A DNA stretch of 64,000 bases from a virus. The stretch lies in the IMG/VR virus record IMGVR_UViG_3300023184_009648, positions 1 through 64,000 of that record; one strand, written 5' to 3'. The translations under genes and the position numbers were made by a program. Position 1 is the stretch's first letter. The number at the start of each line of letters is the position of its first letter. A model generated the notes under the pieces. The model saw nothing but the letters and a program-made list of their open reading frames with translations, had not been told where the DNA came from and ran no database searches. Positions 1-14,136 of the stretch are shown here, in pieces.

Positions 1-2523
1 ATGGCTCCGATATGGTCTGACTTTTTTCGTATCTTTGCCTACAGTGCTGAACCCGATCCGCTGACTCGTCGTAAAGACCCTCGGCAATTCAGTTCTGCTG
101 GCATCGCTCAACCTGAAGCCATGGGTGCTGACATTAACAGTGGCCAAGTCAGTGGTGGCTTAAGCAGTTATCGTCAAACCAATGACATGATTGACACTAC
201 AACACTGTCTAATCGTGCCATGAGATATAAAGAGTATGAGCGCCTTCGTAATGTACCTGAAATTGAAAGTGCAATGACAGTATTTGCTGATGAGGCTTGC
301 GTTGCAGGCGATACTCCTATTGCTACTCCTTTCGGATATATCACTATCAAAGAATTAGCCGAAAAAAAATCAGATGAACGCTTTTTGACTTATTGTTATG
401 ATTTTCAGAAAAATGATTATACACTTGGCTGGGCTTATGCTCCTCGTCTTGTAAAGACCGCTCCAACCAAAAAAATTCTTCTTGATGATGGAACACATTA
501 CACTGCCACTGATGATCATCGTGTGCTTATGCGTGACGGATCATGGTCTGAAACTGGTAAATTAAAATTCGGCGACCAACTTATGCCGTTTTATAGAATT
601 CCATCAAGTCAAAATCATACAAAAATTAAACACTCTCAATATCCTCGCATTTATTCAAATAATAAAGGTTGGATTCACGAACGCCAGTTTGTTGATGATT
701 GGCGTGCAGGAAAAACAACACCTGAACTTGAACTTGTAAATAAAGCTTGTCGCATGCTTGGCAATGGATTAACTACTCGTCAAACTATGGCGAAACTAGG
801 TTGTGATTGGCATACAATTGATTCTCGTCTTGCAAAAGAAGGGTTTTCTTATAAAGAAATCAAACGACTTTATAAATTACACCAAGACTATCGAAGAGTC
901 ATAGGAGTTGAAAATGGACCAGTACAACCAGTATATGACCTAAGTGTTGAAGAACACAAATGTTTTGCTACAAATTCTGTTATTTTGCATAATTGTCAAA
1001 AAGACGAATCAGGAAATATACTTAAAGTCATTACTGAAAATGAAGAAATTAAAGAAGAATTAGAATTTTTATTCTATAATCGACGAATGCTAAACATCAA
1101 CCGAAATGGTTGGATTTGGTTTAAAAATCTTTGCATAATGGGCGATCATTTTATTGATATTGTAATCAATACCGATAATCCCAAAGAGGGTATTTATCGT
1201 GCCGTGACACTGCCATGCGAAACCATGTATCGCATTGAAACAGTTAAAGGCAAACTTATTGAATTTCAACAAAGCAAAGAAGGTCCAGATTATCAAGCAA
1301 TTGTGCGTGGAAGTGTTACTGAATTAACTGATACTGAGTTAAATCAAACAACAGCCTTGCGTTTTGCTCCAAATCAAATCATTCATTTTCGAATTGGAGA
1401 TGATAGAAAAACATTTTATCCATATGGGCAAAGTTTAATTGAACCAGCCCGTGCTCCTGCACATAGCTTGAGATTGATGGAAGATGCGATGGTTGTTTAC
1501 AGGTTGGTTCGAGCACCTGAACGCCGTGTTTTTTATATAGATGTAGGCCAACTTCCGCCATTTAAAGCAGAGGCATTTATTGATCGATTGAAGGATCAAT
1601 TTAGAAAACGCAAAACAACCAATCAAAGCGGAAATTCTGGGGCAAACCAAGTCGAAGAACGATGGATGCCTCCCGCTCAAGATGAAGACTATTGGTTGCC
1701 TATTCGTCCAAATAGCAACACAAGAATCGACACACTTCCCGGTGCCGAAAATCTAGGAGAAATTGATGATGCTGTTTATTTTAGAAACAAACTTCTAACA
1801 GCCCTCAATTTTCCTAAAAACTACTTCAACAATGAAGATCCCGGTAGCACTCGAATTACTCTTTCGGCACAAGACAGCCGATTTGCAAGACTTATTGAGC
1901 GTTTGCAAAGTCATTTTGAAGATGGACTTTTAGAAATCGCCGAACGCCATTTGCAACTTCGAGGTTATCCAGAAAGCAATTATCGTGATCTTAAAATAAA
2001 AATGACACCTCCATCAGATTGGAGAGAATTAAGTCGTTCTGAAGTTGTTAGTGCCCGCTACAACAATGCGGGTGCCCTTAAAAGTGGCATGCTAATGAGT
2101 GATTATGATATTTATACTAAAATTCTTCGATATAGCCATGATGATGCAGAAGAAATGTTAGCAAGGTTGAAGATTCAAAAACTTGAAGACTTAAAGATAC
2201 AAATTATGGCTCAAAATCCACAGCTTCTTGGAGTGGGCATTCCGGGTCAGGAAAGCCAAGAACAAGAACTTGGAGCAGAAGCTGGTGGGCCAGCGGCTCA
2301 ACCTTCACCAAGTGGAGAACTAGCTGCTCCAAGCGGAGAAGAATCTGAAGGTGGTGCACAAGCACTTCCCTCACCAGAACAAGGTGCTGCTGAAAAAACA
2401 CAAACAGAACCTGCAAATTTACCAAATGCTTCTGAAGAAGATATCAAAAAATATGATCTTGAAATTCAAGATTATGATTCAGAAAGTGATATTGAAGATA
2501 TTGACTATAGCGTGGAGGACTGA
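1..2523 (+). CDS. 20: Portal vertex protein (T4 gp20-like) interrupted by an intein
   Basis: The dodecameric portal forms the DNA entry and exit ring of the head. The 840-residue reading frame has portal-like exteins (residues 1-99 and 332-840) around a 232-residue intein. After splicing the portal would be about 608 residues, somewhat longer than T4 gp20. The extein contains the typical run of FRIGDDRKTFYPYGQSLIEP and a FPKNYF segment, and the C-terminal tail is rich in Glu, Pro and Ala. The first codon coincides with base 1 of the window, so no ribosome site can be checked and a start further upstream is possible. Protease gp21, scaffold and capsid genes follow on the same strand, as in T4. 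Family assignment is confident. Confidence 0.9.
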   Translation: MAPIWSDFFRIFAYSAEPDPLTRRKDPRQFSSAGIAQPEAMGADINSGQVSGGLSSYRQTNDMIDTTTLSNRAMRYKEYERLRNVPEIESAMTVFADEACVAGDTPIATPFGYITIKELAEKKSDERFLTYCYDFQKNDYTLGWAYAPRLVKTAPTKKILLDDGTHYTATDDHRVLMRDGSWSETGKLKFGDQLMPFYRIPSSQNHTKIKHSQYPRIYSNNKGWIHERQFVDDWRAGKTTPELELVNKACRMLGNGLTTRQTMAKLGCDWHTIDSRLAKEGFSYKEIKRLYKLHQDYRRVIGVENGPVQPVYDLSVEEHKCFATNSVILHNCQKDESGNILKVITENEEIKEELEFLFYNRRMLNINRNGWIWFKNLCIMGDHFIDIVINTDNPKEGIYRAVTLPCETMYRIETVKGKLIEFQQSKEGPDYQAIVRGSVTELTDTELNQTTALRFAPNQIIHFRIGDDRKTFYPYGQSLIEPARAPAHSLRLMEDAMVVYRLVRAPERRVFYIDVGQLPPFKAEAFIDRLKDQFRKRKTTNQSGNSGANQVEERWMPPAQDEDYWLPIRPNSNTRIDTLPGAENLGEIDDAVYFRNKLLTALNFPKNYFNNEDPGSTRITLSAQDSRFARLIERLQSHFEDGLLEIAERHLQLRGYPESNYRDLKIKMTPPSDWRELSRSEVVSARYNNAGALKSGMLMSDYDIYTKILRYSHDDAEEMLARLKIQKLEDLKIQIMAQNPQLLGVGIPGQESQEQELGAEAGGPAAQPSPSGELAAPSGEESEGGAQALPSPEQGAAEKTQTEPANLPNASEEDIKKYDLEIQDYDSESDIEDIDYSVED
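298..993 (+). other. Mini-intein inside the portal gene
   Basis: Residues 100-331 of the portal frame form an intein. Block A begins at Cys100 (CVAGDTPIATPFG), block B has a TxxH motif (T170, H173), block F reads VYDLSVEEHKCF, and block G ends VILHN followed by Cys332 as the +1 residue. All classical splicing residues are present, so splicing is probably active. Between blocks B and F there is no LAGLIDADG motif. About 90 residues there include a helix-turn-helix-like stretch (GLTTRQTMAKLGCDWHTID), perhaps what remains of an HNH-type homing nuclease. The insertion point is inside the DEA motif of the portal wing. Confidence 0.88.
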
Positions 2524-5050: not shown

Positions 5051-5728
5051 ATGGATAACAATCAGGTCTTATTTATTGATTGCTGCACCAACGGCGGCTT
5101 CCACATGAATCTGAACGAGTCAGTCACCGATAGGGGACTGACTAAGTTTAGAGGAAAGTTCCAAGAAGCTGAAGCTGTCAATAAAAACAAGCGTATCTAT
5201 CCCTTTTCAGTACTCGACGAAAATGTCAAGAAACTGAATCCTATTATTGAAGCTCGTGGATTGATTGGTGAGTTAGATCACCCTACCGATTCAATCATCC
5301 ACTTTGACAAATGCTCCCATGTTGTTACAAAACTATGGTGGGAAGGCAATAATCTTATGGGCGAAGGCGAAATTCTCAATACACCTTATGGAAAGATATT
5401 AAAAACTCTTTTAAATGATGGTGTGCGTGTTGGAATTAGCAGCCGTGGCGTCGGAAATGGACGCAGCGACGAAAATGGAATTCTAGTAATTGGTGAAAGC
5501 TACAAACTCATTACATTTGATGCCGTAGCAGATCCTTCAACTCATTCAGCATTCCAAGAAAAAGTCGTGGGTGGCAAGAAAGAAAGCTATGTTCCGACTG
5601 AAAGCCAAGCTCCTGCTAAATTCTTAACAAAAAATGAATCCAAGAAACATGTTTCGAAAGACGCACTCTTGGCCTGCATTAGTGGCATCATTAAGAATGA
5701 AGCATCTGCTATCGCATCTAGGATCTAA
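5051..5728 (+). CDS. 21: Prohead core protease (T4 gp21-like)
   Basis: A 225-residue serine protease that cleaves scaffold, capsid and internal proteins during T4-type head maturation. The catalytic His lies in GELDHP (H77) and the nucleophile in GISSRG (S130 or S131). FDAVADPS near residue 161 matches the conserved acidic region. AAAGGAG precedes the ATG. It sits between the putative core protein and the scaffold, separated from the latter by a LAGLIDADG-type gene on the other strand. In T4 this enzyme prefers (L/I)-x-E sites, and such sites end most of the N-terminal signals catalogued in this window, so it is the likely processing enzyme for them. Confidence 0.93.
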   Translation: MDNNQVLFIDCCTNGGFHMNLNESVTDRGLTKFRGKFQEAEAVNKNKRIYPFSVLDENVKKLNPIIEARGLIGELDHPTDSIIHFDKCSHVVTKLWWEGNNLMGEGEILNTPYGKILKTLLNDGVRVGISSRGVGNGRSDENGILVIGESYKLITFDAVADPSTHSAFQEKVVGGKKESYVPTESQAPAKFLTKNESKKHVSKDALLACISGIIKNEASAIASRI

Positions 5729-6924: not shown

Positions 6925-7827
6925 ATGGACAAGATTTTAGAAGCATTGAAAAATCTCTTACCTGAAGCAGAAGTCAATGAAGTGGCTAATGCTATTAACG
7001 GTTTGTTGGAGCAGGCTAAACAAGACCTAGAAACTGAATACAATTCTAAACTTGAAGAAGCCTATGCCGAGCTTACTACCGAATTAGGTAATGCTGAAGA
7101 AACTGCAGAGACTGGCTACGAAGAAGCTTACGCCATTATTGGCGACCTTCGTAATCGTCTTGAAGTTCAAGGCCAAGAATACCAAGCCGCTCTTGAAGAG
7201 GGCTATGAAGAAGCGTATCAGATGCTTAAAGCTGAACGCTCCAAAAATCAAAATATCGAAGTTGAAATGTATGAAGAATACGACAAGAAACTTCGTGAGA
7301 TGAAAGAATACATTGTTAACAATGTAGATAAGTATCTCCAATTCAAAGGTCAAGAAGTTTACGAACAAGTTCGTCGTGAAGTTCTTGCTGATCCTCGTAT
7401 TGTTGAGCACAAGGTTGCTCTTGATAAGATTATCGGCATTACCTCCAATTATGTGTCTGCTGACGAATTCGCTGGCGTGAACAACGCTAAGGTCGAAGAA
7501 GCCATCAAGCAAGTTGATGAACTTAAAGGTCAGTTACGCATTCTTGAAGCTCGCAATATCCGAATCAGCACGGAAAACACCAAGCTGAATGAGGCTGTTC
7601 GTCAAGCTCAAGATGTTATCAATGAGAGCCGACAAGTCGTTTCTCGTGAAAAGAAAGCCGCTGTTATCAGCGAGCAGAATGAAAGAGTACAGAAAGCAAA
7701 GAATGTAACGGGGAGAGGAAACACTTCCAGCCAACAAGTTGTCATTGCGGAACATGCCAACAGTGCTGGTGGTAACGCCGATTTGGACCAAATGTTGGTT
7801 CTATCGGGCTTGAAACGAGCTAACTAA
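6925..7827 (+). CDS. 22: Prohead core scaffolding protein (T4 gp22-like)
   Basis: A 300-residue, highly charged, almost entirely helical protein placed between protease and major capsid genes, the T4 order. It assembles the internal core of the prohead and is then degraded by gp21. Near residues 59-90 there are two similar Glu-rich segments, TGYEEAYAII and EGYEEAYQML. Long coiled-coil stretches follow to about residue 250, and the tail LDQMLVLSGLKRAN is typical of T4-like scaffolds. GAGGAT upstream and a promoter-like site support the start. Confidence 0.88.
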   Translation: MDKILEALKNLLPEAEVNEVANAINGLLEQAKQDLETEYNSKLEEAYAELTTELGNAEETAETGYEEAYAIIGDLRNRLEVQGQEYQAALEEGYEEAYQMLKAERSKNQNIEVEMYEEYDKKLREMKEYIVNNVDKYLQFKGQEVYEQVRREVLADPRIVEHKVALDKIIGITSNYVSADEFAGVNNAKVEEAIKQVDELKGQLRILEARNIRISTENTKLNEAVRQAQDVINESRQVVSREKKAAVISEQNERVQKAKNVTGRGNTSSQQVVIAEHANSAGGNADLDQMLVLSGLKRAN

Positions 7828-7866: not shown

Positions 7867-9300
7867 ATGAACGCTAATGCAGCATTTTTGAACGAGGCTA
7901 AGGAGTTGGAAACTCGCTGGTCTAAGACCGGACTCCTCGAAAACATTCAGGATCGATATGTCCGTGCTACGACAGCAGTCCTTCTCGAAAACCAAAGGCT
8001 TATGAACGAAACCAGCACCGACACAGGTGATGTGGCCCAGTTCAAACGCATCTCGATCCCGCTGGTTCGCCGTATTTATCCCCAGCTGATCGCTAACAAG
8101 ATCGTTTCTGTCCAGCCATTGCTTGGACCAACCGGTCTCGTTTACTATCTCCGTTTCCGTTACGCATCCAATAAGGGTGCTACCCGTGGAGCAGACAAAC
8201 TCGGCTTCCCCGGCGATGACGCTAACTCCCTCATGCAGAGGGCTGACGGTACAGCCAATTTGGATGTATTCTACTCCAGCCAATTCGTGCAAAATGAAGT
8301 GAGCGCAACTGACGCTGGTCTCACCACCACCGCTTCTTACGCCGCTTTTGAGCACACCCCCATTCTTGCTGGAACCGTAACTGGTACCATCTATGATGGT
8401 GGCACAGCTATCCAGACCTTTACTGTGTCTGCAGCTGGTGCTTTCGCTTTCAATGATATCGGATCTCCTTCCCCCAAGGTGACCGCTGGTAGCCTTAGCC
8501 TTACCTCTGGTGAGCTTACCTTGACTTGGAACAGCGCTCCCGGTAGCAACAATGTTGTTATATCTTATGAATACAACATGGAATGCAACCAAGATCTTCC
8601 CGAAATCAACCTCGTTGTTGAAGGCGAAGAAATCGCTGCTAAAACTCGCAAGCTCAAGGCTGTATGGAGCTATGAAGCTCAACAAGACCTTCGCAGCCAG
8701 CACAATCTGGACGCTGAGGCTGAATTGACAGCTGTTCTTGCTCAGGAAATCAACCTCGAAATCGACCGTGAAGTTCTCGGCGACTTGCGCAACAACGCAG
8801 GTACCGTTAGTGCATGGGATTTCAACACCGCTCTAGGCGAAACCATCAAGGAAAAATACGAAAGCCTTTATGTTAAGGTTGTAGAAATTTCCAATGTTAT
8901 CCACAGAAAGACCCTTCGTGGTGGTGCTAACTGGATCGTGACCAGCCCAGAAGTTGCCTCGATCTTCGAGACCGCTACCGCTGGCTTCGCTCCTGCTCCT
9001 AGCGAAACCTTCACAAGCTCCATCGGCGTTCAATATGTCGGTACTGTGAACAATCGTTGGAGGCTCTACAAAGATCCTCTCTTCCCAAGCAATCAAATCC
9101 TCATGGGTTACAAGGGCGATAGCTACATGGACAGCGGTTATTTCTACTGTCCTTATGTTCCTCTCACCCAAACCCCTGTTGTGTTAGATCCTGAGAGCTT
9201 CTGCCCTCGTAAAGGAATTTTAACACGCTATGGTAAGAAATTGCTCCGTGAAGGTGCTAAGTTCTACGCCCGTATGTCGATTGCAAACTTCGTAATCTAA
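7867..9300 (+). CDS. 23: Major capsid protein (T4 gp23-like)
   Basis: A 477-residue HK97-fold capsid protein. Family hallmarks are VQPLLGPTGLVYYLRFRY near residue 80, an inserted beta-rich domain at about 165-240 (AGTVTGTIYDGG to VVISYEYN), the EGEEIAAKTRKLKAVWSYE segment near 257, and a C-terminal YARMSIANFVI. T4 gp23 loses an N-terminal propeptide to gp21; here LLE at residues 39-41 or MNE near 46-48 are possible sites. Codon use is more G+C-rich than in neighbouring accessory genes, as expected for a highly expressed protein. A strong terminator follows. Confidence 0.95.
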   Translation: MNANAAFLNEAKELETRWSKTGLLENIQDRYVRATTAVLLENQRLMNETSTDTGDVAQFKRISIPLVRRIYPQLIANKIVSVQPLLGPTGLVYYLRFRYASNKGATRGADKLGFPGDDANSLMQRADGTANLDVFYSSQFVQNEVSATDAGLTTTASYAAFEHTPILAGTVTGTIYDGGTAIQTFTVSAAGAFAFNDIGSPSPKVTAGSLSLTSGELTLTWNSAPGSNNVVISYEYNMECNQDLPEINLVVEGEEIAAKTRKLKAVWSYEAQQDLRSQHNLDAEAELTAVLAQEINLEIDREVLGDLRNNAGTVSAWDFNTALGETIKEKYESLYVKVVEISNVIHRKTLRGGANWIVTSPEVASIFETATAGFAPAPSETFTSSIGVQYVGTVNNRWRLYKDPLFPSNQILMGYKGDSYMDSGYFYCPYVPLTQTPVVLDPESFCPRKGILTRYGKKLLREGAKFYARMSIANFVI

Positions 9301-9445: not shown

Positions 9446-10249
9446 ATGTCAAACCTTAGATTTCGCCGTTATCATTGGCACACATCTAAAAAGGCCGGAA
9501 CTGTTTATTTGGATTCTTCCTACGAACTTAAAGCTGCTTTGATTCTAGACAATGATGATGACATTTTATTTTACGAACTACACCAAGAGTTCTTGAACGA
9601 AAGCGGTCGGAAAAGAATCACAGATTTTCTGGTAACCTATAAATCAGGCAAAAAAAAGCTTATCGAAATTAAGCCAGCTAGAAGAATCTGCCAATTCACT
9701 GAGCAAATTGAAGACAACAAAAAATACGCTTTTTCCAATGGTTATGATTTTCAAATTTGGAGCGAAAAAGAACTTGGTTTTGCATCGGAAAAAGACGCAA
9801 CCGAATGGGCTGATAAGTATCTTTCAATTACCACAAATACAGATTACACAGCAATTCGCAAAGAGCGTGGAAAAATTAGAAGTAAAAAACATTATCTCAA
9901 GAAGATTGCCGATGACCAAGTAACCCTATATTGCGAGTTTTGCAAAAAAGAACACACCGCTCTAAAGCTCACCCACGACCGCAATCTGGCTCGGAATGGA
10001 CGATACATTTGTGAGCGGGAAGGTGGTCATATAGCAGGGAGTCTACCGAAGTTGCATTTGAGGAAGGACAATCCTCATGTGGCTGATGGCAAGAAGGAGT
10101 GTGCCTCCTGTCAGACGGTGAAGTTATTTGAGGCATTCAGCCCTGACAAGAGTAAGAGAGACGGGTATTGCCGCATGTGCAAGGAGTGTCGCAGCGCCAA
10201 GATGAAGGCTGCATATGAGGCAAAGAAAGCTAACAAGACTGCTGATTAG
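9446..10249 (+). CDS. TnsA-like PD-(D/E)XK endonuclease with C-terminal zinc finger
   Basis: A 267-residue protein with AAAGGAG before the ATG. The N-terminal half follows the TnsA/restriction-fold pattern: an early Glu in SSYELKAALIL (near residue 26), ITDFLVTY (Asp near 61) and KLIEIKP (Glu-x-Lys, near 72-74). Two cysteine clusters follow: CEFC near 160, and CASC followed by CRMCKEC near 220-246. The latter resembles the zinc module attached to phage HNH and homing proteins. Similar proteins in phages are annotated as TnsA N-terminal-domain endonucleases; a role in DNA processing or head completion is possible. It follows the capsid terminator, so it has its own promoter. Confidence 0.7.
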   Translation: MSNLRFRRYHWHTSKKAGTVYLDSSYELKAALILDNDDDILFYELHQEFLNESGRKRITDFLVTYKSGKKKLIEIKPARRICQFTEQIEDNKKYAFSNGYDFQIWSEKELGFASEKDATEWADKYLSITTNTDYTAIRKERGKIRSKKHYLKKIADDQVTLYCEFCKKEHTALKLTHDRNLARNGRYICEREGGHIAGSLPKLHLRKDNPHVADGKKECASCQTVKLFEAFSPDKSKRDGYCRMCKECRSAKMKAAYEAKKANKTAD

Positions 10250-12546: not shown

Positions 12547-13410
12547 TTATTTTCTTTTTTTGATTTCTTCAACTAAATTTGATACAAGCTTTACGGCAGC
12601 GTCGATAAGTTCGCTTTTTTTAGCCTCTATATTATTAACGCTATAAGCTTTTTTATAACCAAAAACATGCCCTGATATACAATTTTCGGGTACAAAAATG
12701 CCTGAATATCGGCATTGATTAACAATCGGCATAATAGCTTGTTCTGGGCTTATATAATAGTTACTTTTCATTTCGGCCATAGCAAGTGGCATACGACGAC
12801 CAACATAGTCATTTGCTCCATCATCGCCATGGATAAAGAAAGCTCCAACCTTACCTTCATAATGATTTTTAAGTAGCTCCCTATGCTTTCCTGATCTTTC
12901 CATAGCAATAGTCACAGATGGATCTTTAAATTTATCACCCATAATTTTTTTTGCATCTTTTTGATTAAGTGTCAAACTAACACAAACAAGACGATCAAAA
13001 AATGCTTTAACTTGGGTTGAAGGGGCATACCAGTGAACTGGGGTAAATACGGCAAAACCATCTGCTTCTTCCATTTTTTTATAAACATCTTCTTCGTGCA
13101 TGTAATCATTAGTTCCATCGCCTTTTGAATAGCAAGAACAAGGATAATGGCAATGGAAGCCGTTTGATGTTGCCACACATCCTTTGCATGGTCGAACTAC
13201 GGGATCTGTATCCATAACTCTGAGATTAAGGGGTATAACCTTAATGTCTTTTGCAAGTGATTGTAGGGCTTTATTATAAATAAATTCAGTTTTTGAATCA
13301 CCGCCAGAACATGAGTCTTTAGTTCTAGGGCTGCCTTGAATAACAACGATTTTGATGCCTTCATCATTGTTTTTAGTAGTTTCTGCGAGATATTCAACAA
13401 ATGTCTTCAT
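12547..13410 (-). CDS. NADPH-dependent FMN reductase-like flavoprotein with capsid-targeting-like N-terminus
   Basis: A 287-residue flavodoxin-fold protein. An in-frame start at 13587 would add a low-complexity Phe/Ser stretch antisense to the neighbour, so MKTF at 13410 was chosen. Residues 1-10, MKTFVEYLAE, closely match the T4 internal-protein targeting sequence and end in LAE. The enzyme begins at about residue 19: IVVIQGSPR holds the phosphate-binding loop for FMN, PCKGC and CHYPCSC (residues 75-93) resemble the cysteine cluster of iron-sulfur flavoproteins, and FTPVHWYAPSTQVKAFFDR is the conserved NADPH-FMN reductase segment. It may be packaged into the head as a redox enzyme; that is inferred from the signal. 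Its partner gene diverges upstream. Confidence 0.82.
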   Translation of the reverse strand: MKTFVEYLAETTKNNDEGIKIVVIQGSPRTKDSCSGGDSKTEFIYNKALQSLAKDIKVIPLNLRVMDTDPVVRPCKGCVATSNGFHCHYPCSCYSKGDGTNDYMHEEDVYKKMEEADGFAVFTPVHWYAPSTQVKAFFDRLVCVSLTLNQKDAKKIMGDKFKDPSVTIAMERSGKHRELLKNHYEGKVGAFFIHGDDGANDYVGRRMPLAMAEMKSNYYISPEQAIMPIVNQCRYSGIFVPENCISGHVFGYKKAYSVNNIEAKKSELIDAAVKLVSNLVEEIKKRK

Positions 13411-13430: not shown

Positions 13431-13438
13431 TATATAAG
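13431..13438 (+). promoter_or_regulatory. Candidate late promoter in divergent spacer
   Basis: TATATAAG lies 16-23 bases before the plus-strand gene at 13454, in the 43-base spacer between two divergent genes that both carry the capsid-targeting-like signal. Confidence 0.35.
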
Positions 13439-13453
13439 TTAAGGAGAACTACG

Positions 13454-13783
13454 ATGAAATCATTTAATGAATATTTGGCGGAAAAAGATGAGATAAACAT
13501 ACATGAAGTTGCAAAAAAAACTGCTACGAAAAAAGATGTAAAGAAAAAAGATGTAAAGAAAAAATCATCAACTGTTCCAAGCAGCAATCGTATTAAGGGT
13601 ATGGTTGCACTGGTCGATTCGCTTAAAAAGTTTTTTGGCGAATATGACTTACCTACCCGTCAATTTCTTTGGAACAGGCTTACCACACCAAAAGGCAAGG
13701 AATTATTGGAAAAAGTGCTAAGAAATCCTAATGCAAATCTTACGAATAGTGTTTTTGTGCAATTGGTTACAACAAAGAAATAA
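13454..13783 (+). CDS. Basic putative internal head protein
   Basis: A 109-residue protein with AAGGAGAA before the ATG. MKSFNEYLAE at residues 1-10 is one of the best matches to the T4 capsid-targeting sequence, with an LAE cleavage site. A Lys-rich linker (KKDVKKKDVKKK) follows, then a small helical domain near residues 45-105. The strong positive charge suits binding to packaged DNA, like the T4 internal proteins. It diverges from the flavoprotein gene. Confidence 0.75.
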   Translation: MKSFNEYLAEKDEINIHEVAKKTATKKDVKKKDVKKKSSTVPSSNRIKGMVALVDSLKKFFGEYDLPTRQFLWNRLTTPKGKELLEKVLRNPNANLTNSVFVQLVTTKK

Positions 13784-13857
13784 TTGTAGTTGATATTCAG
13801 CACTGATCGTGGTATTATATCTTTGCACACGGAATGTGCAGAAAGAGAGAGTGTTTT

Positions 13858-14136
13858 GTGAAAAAGTTTGCTTTTTTGGCGTGCGCTTTGGCTTTGTCTG
13901 GTGTAGTTGCTGCTGAGGCACAAGCGGGATGTCGTCCCGGTTTGTTTTCTCGGTTTGGAGGTCGCAATGGTGGTAGCTGCTCTTCCAACAGCAGTTGCAG
14001 TAATTCCACTTGTGGCAGCTGTACGGTGACTACCACCAAGACCAGAACGGTAGAAAAGAAGGCTGCTCCTTCTCCTGTGACTGAAAAGGCACAGGCTCCT
14101 ACCACTGATAAGAAGGCTGCTCCTAGTCTTCGCTAA
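13858..14136 (+). CDS. Small secreted Ser/Cys-rich protein
   Basis: A 92-residue protein started at GTG, which has GAGAGAG upstream and gives a clean signal peptide (KKFAFLACALALSGVVAAEA, then QAGC). An upstream ATG at 13834 would place CRKREC before it. The mature part has GCRPGLFSRFGGRNGG, a Ser/Cys-rich stretch and a Lys/Pro/Ala-rich tail. This architecture resembles short exported proteins I associate with planctomycetes, suggesting host-derived sequence; that is a weak inference. Short tandem CTAATGTGCTCG repeats follow the stop, then a terminator. Confidence 0.65.
   Translation: MKKFAFLACALALSGVVAAEAQAGCRPGLFSRFGGRNGGSCSSNSSCSNSTCGSCTVTTTKTRTVEKKAAPSPVTEKAQAPTTDKKAAPSLR

Follow-up and report, generated by a model that had tools for sequence, protein, structure and literature searches.

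A gene in an IMG/VR virus record encodes what is probably an internal head protein: an NAD(P)H-dependent oxidoreductase with a flavodoxin fold that a large T4-like phage would package, process with a gp21-type protease and eject with its DNA into the host. The analysed window, a stretch of 64,000 nucleotides, is part of the 86,320-base record, and the gene occupies positions 12547-13410 on the minus strand, with the ATG at 13410 and the stop codon at 12547-12549. The 287-residue protein, which opens MKTFVEYLAETTKNNDEGIKIVVIQGSPR, consists of the decapeptide MKTFVEYLAE, a variable linker and a flavodoxin-fold FMN reductase domain, and its designation as a capsid-targeting-sequence (CTS)-tagged flavodoxin-fold FMN reductase is based on a match to the Pfam family PF03358 and on 14 full-length viral homologues. 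Read mechanically, the open reading frame could extend upstream to a TTG at 13587; the starts of the homologues coincide with the ATG at 13410, not with this TTG. The feature noted in this gene is confirmed and far exceeds what chance would produce.

The decapeptide (13381-13410, minus strand) is predicted to be a capsid-targeting tag with a prohead-protease cleavage site after E10, between L-A-E and T. In T4, the ten N-terminal residues of IPIII are enough for entry into the head; targeting depends on residues 4 and 7 of this sequence and processing on residues 8 and 10, and gp21 cleaves after L/I-x-E (PMC9026906). IPII and IPIII of T4 both open MKTYQEFIAEA (AF158101). The closeness of MKTFVEYLAE to the T4 targeting sequence, pointed out in the initial annotation, is borne out by the comparison: six of the ten residues are identical to MKTYQEFIAE of IPII/IPIII, three more are conservative changes (F/Y, Y/F, L/I), and all four critical T4 positions fit, with aromatic F4 and Y7 and with L8-A9-E10 as the L/I-x-E site. 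The strict tag pattern M..[FY]..[FYW][LIVM].E was counted at ATGs: the 86-kb record has 3,343, and the three that fit are all gene starts (13410 on the minus strand, 13454 on the plus strand and record position 78967 on the plus strand). The pattern occurs at 3 out of 6,074 ATGs in T4 (150 kb), which are those of ipII, ipIII and gp61.1 only; IPI is missed because its propeptide differs (MKTFKEFTS). A relaxed pattern, defined as two aromatics three apart, is also enriched at gene starts (15/88, versus 5.5% at other ATGs, p 1.7e-4), and loosely spaced tags are common in these phage genomes. Some of the relaxed matches, among them the N-terminus of a PrkA kinase in G001, look like native sequence, and the relaxed pattern was therefore dropped as proof, leaving the strict register alone as convincing.

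The viral contigs were scanned twice for homologues of the flavoprotein, yielding 17 distinct loci. Fourteen full-length close homologues share 68-72% identity, some pairs being nearly identical. The tag is kept in all 14, with F or Y at position 4, Y at 7, L or I at 8 and E at 10 (shifted by one in L016, whose start lies one residue earlier than that of the other homologues), and the proteins start with MISFIEYLAEA, MRSYAEYLAEA, MKTFAEYLVEA, MRSFLEYIAEA and similar sequences. Codons were compared among 11 sequences, namely that of the window and ten homologues. Synonymous change among them is near saturation, and the tag residues are F/Y at 4, E at 6, Y at 7, L/I at 8 and E at 10, encoded by varying codons. 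Across these 11 sequences, pN/pS is 0.25 for the tag, 0.41 for the linker and 0.15-0.29 for the domain; the linker (residues 11-18; 13357-13380, minus strand) has the highest value of the compared regions, taken over residues 12-18, and is modelled with low confidence. The codon comparison indicates that the tag is under purifying selection. In L019 (54% identity) the tag is weakened (MESFNNYIESK), and L020 and L007 (43-44% identity), the latter located in a 735-kb uncultured phage, open MKVKKL[KQ][DE]YN, with the domain kept and neither the canonical tag nor the cleavage site present. Packaging by way of the tag would therefore not extend to every phage that has the enzyme. In the phylogenetic tree, the tagged sequences form one branch (99/99) and all phage sequences lie apart from the cellular ones, at a place where long branches meet, as the program warned.

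The remainder of the protein (residues 19-287; 12550-13356, minus strand) is assigned to the flavodoxin-like FMN reductases on the basis of a Pfam match, an AlphaFold model and structural matches to RosB and ArsH. PF03358 (FMN_red, NADPH-dependent FMN reductase) covers residues 19-152 and scores 43.1 bits, the cut-off being 24 (E 4.1e-11), and Flavodoxin_2 is also above its own cut-off in the same protein (E 3.8e-7). No family for the tagged flavoprotein was found in PHROGs and NCBIfam, and the PDB sequence search gave no match at E 0.1 with this protein alone and only weak FMN/quinone-reductase matches with a phage-plus-cell profile. The AlphaFold model, built from 13 phage sequences, has a mean pLDDT of 73.8 and a pTM of 0.75; the loop that holds the Cys cluster is modelled poorly. 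Its top structural match in VIA-align is RosB (Z 16.4, rmsd 3.3 Å, 194 aligned residues), and further matches include SP1951 (Z 15.8), ArsH (Z 15.7, rmsd 3.2, 177 aligned residues) and chromate and azo reductases (Z ~15). As modelled, the fold is that of a flavodoxin/FMN reductase. Most structural matches begin at model residue 16-21, indicating that the tag, which is modelled as a separate short helix (residues 4-12) N-terminal to the domain, lies outside it. Strong conservation is seen in the FMN-loop region (TPVHWY..S.QVKA.FDRL), in the Cys cluster and at HGDDGA. The phage protein has the fold and the FMN-loop region in common with the PF03358 family (ArsH, ChrR, WrbA-like proteins and SsuE, as well as RosB) and scores above the Pfam gathering cut-off, but it differs in its conserved Cys/His cluster, its targeting tag and the greater length of its C-terminal half. 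FMN binding and NAD(P)H-dependent activity are predicted from the family and the conserved motifs.

The five-Cys cluster of the FMN reductase-like domain, whose fusion to the tag had also been recognised at the outset and is confirmed here, comprises C75-x2-C78-x8-C87-x3-C91-x-C93 (13132-13188, minus strand). No close cellular homologue was found in the genomes of 84,980 bacterial and archaeal species in scans that were seeded on exact patterns and would miss distant ones. In a plasmid collection, 98 records contained matches with roughly 26-36% identity, the annotated ones being 'flavodoxin family protein', and five plasmid-borne cellular relatives were aligned with the phage proteins. C34, C75, C78, C87, H88, C91, C93 and C143 are invariant in the aligned phage and cellular relatives (11 sequences), and the spacing of the cluster is CX2CX8CX3CXC in the phage protein versus CX2CX7CX3CXC in the cellular flavodoxin family proteins. 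Since plasmid proteins from Sinorhizobium, Ensifer, Polaromonas and Gemmatirosa have these eight Cys/His positions in common with the phage protein, the cluster is a property of the enzyme subfamily. The plasmid proteins differ from the phage protein in their low identity (25-29%) and in a long unrelated N-terminal region that takes the place of the tag. Thus the same N-terminus on non-phage homologues, which would have spoken against a phage packaging signal, was encountered neither in the genome scans nor in the aligned plasmid relatives. As to the direction of change, we infer that the tag would be a phage addition. The initial annotation had further suggested an iron-sulfur flavoprotein, and in favour of a methanogen-type electron carrier of this name (Isf), the phage protein does combine a domain of the FMN_red type with a dense Cys cluster that precedes the FMN loop. 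However, the Isf motif is CX2CX2CX5-7C (PMC3164229), and the spacing found here does not match it and resembles that of the cellular flavodoxin family proteins. Isf membership was rejected because of this mismatch, and the protein is very unlikely to be such a carrier; the cluster might instead be a metal site or an Fe-S site of another kind.

The window carries the head and tail genes of a T4-type phage, including a portal gp20 with an intein, gp21, a candidate scaffold, gp23, a tail sheath and baseplate genes. The gp21-type prohead protease (Peptidase_S77; 5051-5728, plus strand) is recognised by Pfam (E 3.6e-24) and PHROG 207 (E 5.5e-48), and its conserved motifs GELDHP and GISSRG, from the catalytic region, align with GELNHP and GVSSRG of T4 gp21. 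Judged from its sequence, the prohead protease encoded by the phage is intact. A gp22-like scaffold candidate (6925-7827, plus strand) was assigned by its position between gp21 and gp23 and its Glu-rich composition, with no family match in Pfam and PHROG. The major capsid protein gp23 (7867-9300, plus strand; Pfam Gp23, E 3.2e-87) is 79% identical to that of LR756511, a 595-kb uncultured phage, and at most ~44% identical to the other matches listed, so that the phage genome is probably large and the record only a part of it. In addition, the portal gene (window 1-2523) contains an intein splicing domain (PF14890, E 6e-12), and a gene directly 3' of gp23 (9446-10249) has a weak TnsA-like endonuclease match (E 5.5e-5, below the NCBIfam cut-off).

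The flavoprotein gene lies back-to-back with a second tagged gene (13454-13783, plus strand), which encodes a small Lys-rich protein of 109 residues opening MKSFNEYLAEKDE, with the tag MKSFNEYLAE in exact register. Tagged homologues of this neighbour adjoin the flavoprotein gene in L005 (36% identity) and L006 (42%), and other tagged proteins are found on the same side of it in L003, L014 and L015. In L003, L009, L012 and L015, a few kb at most separate the flavoprotein gene from gp23. A palindromic TATATA (13431-13436) between the two divergent genes is a candidate late-promoter core for both. TATATA or TATAAAT is present at most 45 nt upstream in 8 out of 22 hand-chosen genes, among them the gp22-like gene and the one that follows the sheath (the tail-tube position), compared with 2.4% of random 45-mers (p about 3e-8), and also in 6 out of 11 homologue upstream regions. 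Because the gene set was hand-chosen and upstream regions are often AT-rich, it is only suggested that the flavoprotein gene is expressed with the late genes. Beside the tagged pair, a gene at 13834-14136 encodes a small Cys-rich protein with an apparent Sec-type signal peptide, and similar small secreted-looking proteins (MKKILFLAVVACSFLGADANAG...) adjoin the flavoprotein gene in L002, L005 and L013.

On all sequence tests applied, the tag reads as a T4-type targeting and cleavage signal: it is kept in the close phage homologues, absent from the cellular relatives and located in a phage that encodes an intact gp21 of its own. Since it fits the T4 signal and is kept in 14 viral homologues, the enzyme is probably packed in the particle and delivered with the DNA; its packaging in the head is, from the sequence, strongly inferred. 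In the proposed mechanism, the flavoprotein may be made together with the late genes, and the decapeptide would dock it into the prohead core via the aromatics at positions 4 and 7, as in T4. The gp21-type protease would then cut after L-A-E (E10), freeing a mature enzyme that begins at T11, and this enzyme would be packaged and ejected into the host with the DNA. Fused foreign proteins are delivered by T4 through head packaging and ejection (PMC9026906). In the host cytoplasm, the enzyme would carry out FMN-dependent reduction of a flavin, quinone or similar acceptor at the start of infection, as its family and conserved motifs suggest. Reduction of quinones, flavins or related compounds under oxidative or electrophile stress is a common role among structural relatives such as ArsH, ChrR, WrbA and NQO-type enzymes, and such a reduction is therefore the leading hypothesis for the flavoprotein. 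FMN would probably have to survive tail passage or be regained after it, which counts against the view of a delivered enzyme. Any effect on the host, including the action on redox state or oxidative defence that the initial annotation had proposed, is speculation. It may be proposed, doubtful as this is, that heads are pre-loaded with the Cys-cluster flavoenzyme and its back-to-back-encoded partner so that a redox-dependent host response, be it a defence (oxidative or electrophile-based) or a quinone/flavin-linked alarm, is disarmed ahead of any phage gene expression.

Two other explanations were considered for the tagged enzyme. It might be an ordinary auxiliary metabolic gene product that works in the infected cell only, its N-terminal helix being a part of the enzyme or a coincidence. 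Other phages have flavodoxin-fold reductases with no known packaging, as Synechococcus phage S-N03 and a WrbA-like protein, both among the fold matches, illustrate (the S-N03 flavoprotein was not located in the annotation of the first 50 kb), and L007 and L020 keep the domain without the canonical tag. However, the exact T4 register of the tag, its purifying selection, the variable linker that separates it from the domain and its lack in the cellular relatives, together with the recurrence of the same tag pattern on unrelated neighbours, make this explanation unlikely. Alternatively, the protein might be packaged but not delivered, serving as a core- or DNA-associated structural protein that uses the flavodoxin fold as a scaffold, or acting inside the assembling head. 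In T4, IPIII takes part in head morphogenesis (PMC9026906), and the proximity to gp23 at four loci would agree with such a function. The strong conservation of the FMN-loop region, the Cys cluster and HGDDGA is, however, that expected of a working enzyme, and the flavoprotein is patchily distributed among phages, with no match in LR756511, the phage with the closest gp23, so that this second explanation is very unlikely.

Packaging and delivery of the flavoprotein would have precedents in T4. The contents of T4-type heads are known to be mostly small proteins of unknown role, together with a restriction inhibitor and an ADP-ribosyltransferase. IPI, IPII and IPIII carry an N-terminal ten-residue propeptide with aromatics at positions 4 and 7 and, in IPII/IPIII, L/I-x-E, as in the flavoprotein, and both phages have gp20, gp21 and gp23 homologues; the predicted cargo here is a recognisable redox enzyme domain, unlike the small basic proteins or restriction inhibitor of T4. 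The T4 Alt ADP-ribosyltransferase is, by analogy, a head-carried enzyme that is ejected with the DNA and acts on the host at once, but it differs in its propeptide (MELITELFDE), its target (RNA polymerase) and its enzyme family. No flavoenzyme was found as capsid-targeting-sequence cargo in the titles and abstracts of the papers retrieved on these sequences, a set that covered subscription articles in small part. With a conserved oxidoreductase targeted to the head, the reach of capsid delivery would include redox chemistry, and a host process that needs to be changed at the moment of entry would be indicated. Moreover, a strict reading of the decapeptide can serve to find candidates for injected enzymes in the genomes of uncultured phages.

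Several other proteins were observed during the searches. T4 gp61.1 (AF158101, 18966-19130), annotated as hypothetical, opens MKTFKEFIKED and fits the targeting pattern like IPII and IPIII. A P-loop kinase-like protein in L016 (9000-9683, minus strand; AAA_33, PHROG polynucleotide kinase) opens MKAFAQWVEKAD and is possibly a second tagged enzyme. In L039 (7450-13221), from the record of L019, three large consecutive proteins have near-identical starts (MRFKQWLLLSEKIEVNGVQFRDKL) and form an apparent repeated tagged family. L050 (4192-6201), from the record of L002, lies on a viral contig of 225 kb and encodes a 669-residue PrkA-type serine protein kinase, which has an AAA_PrkA domain and a PrkA C-terminal domain.
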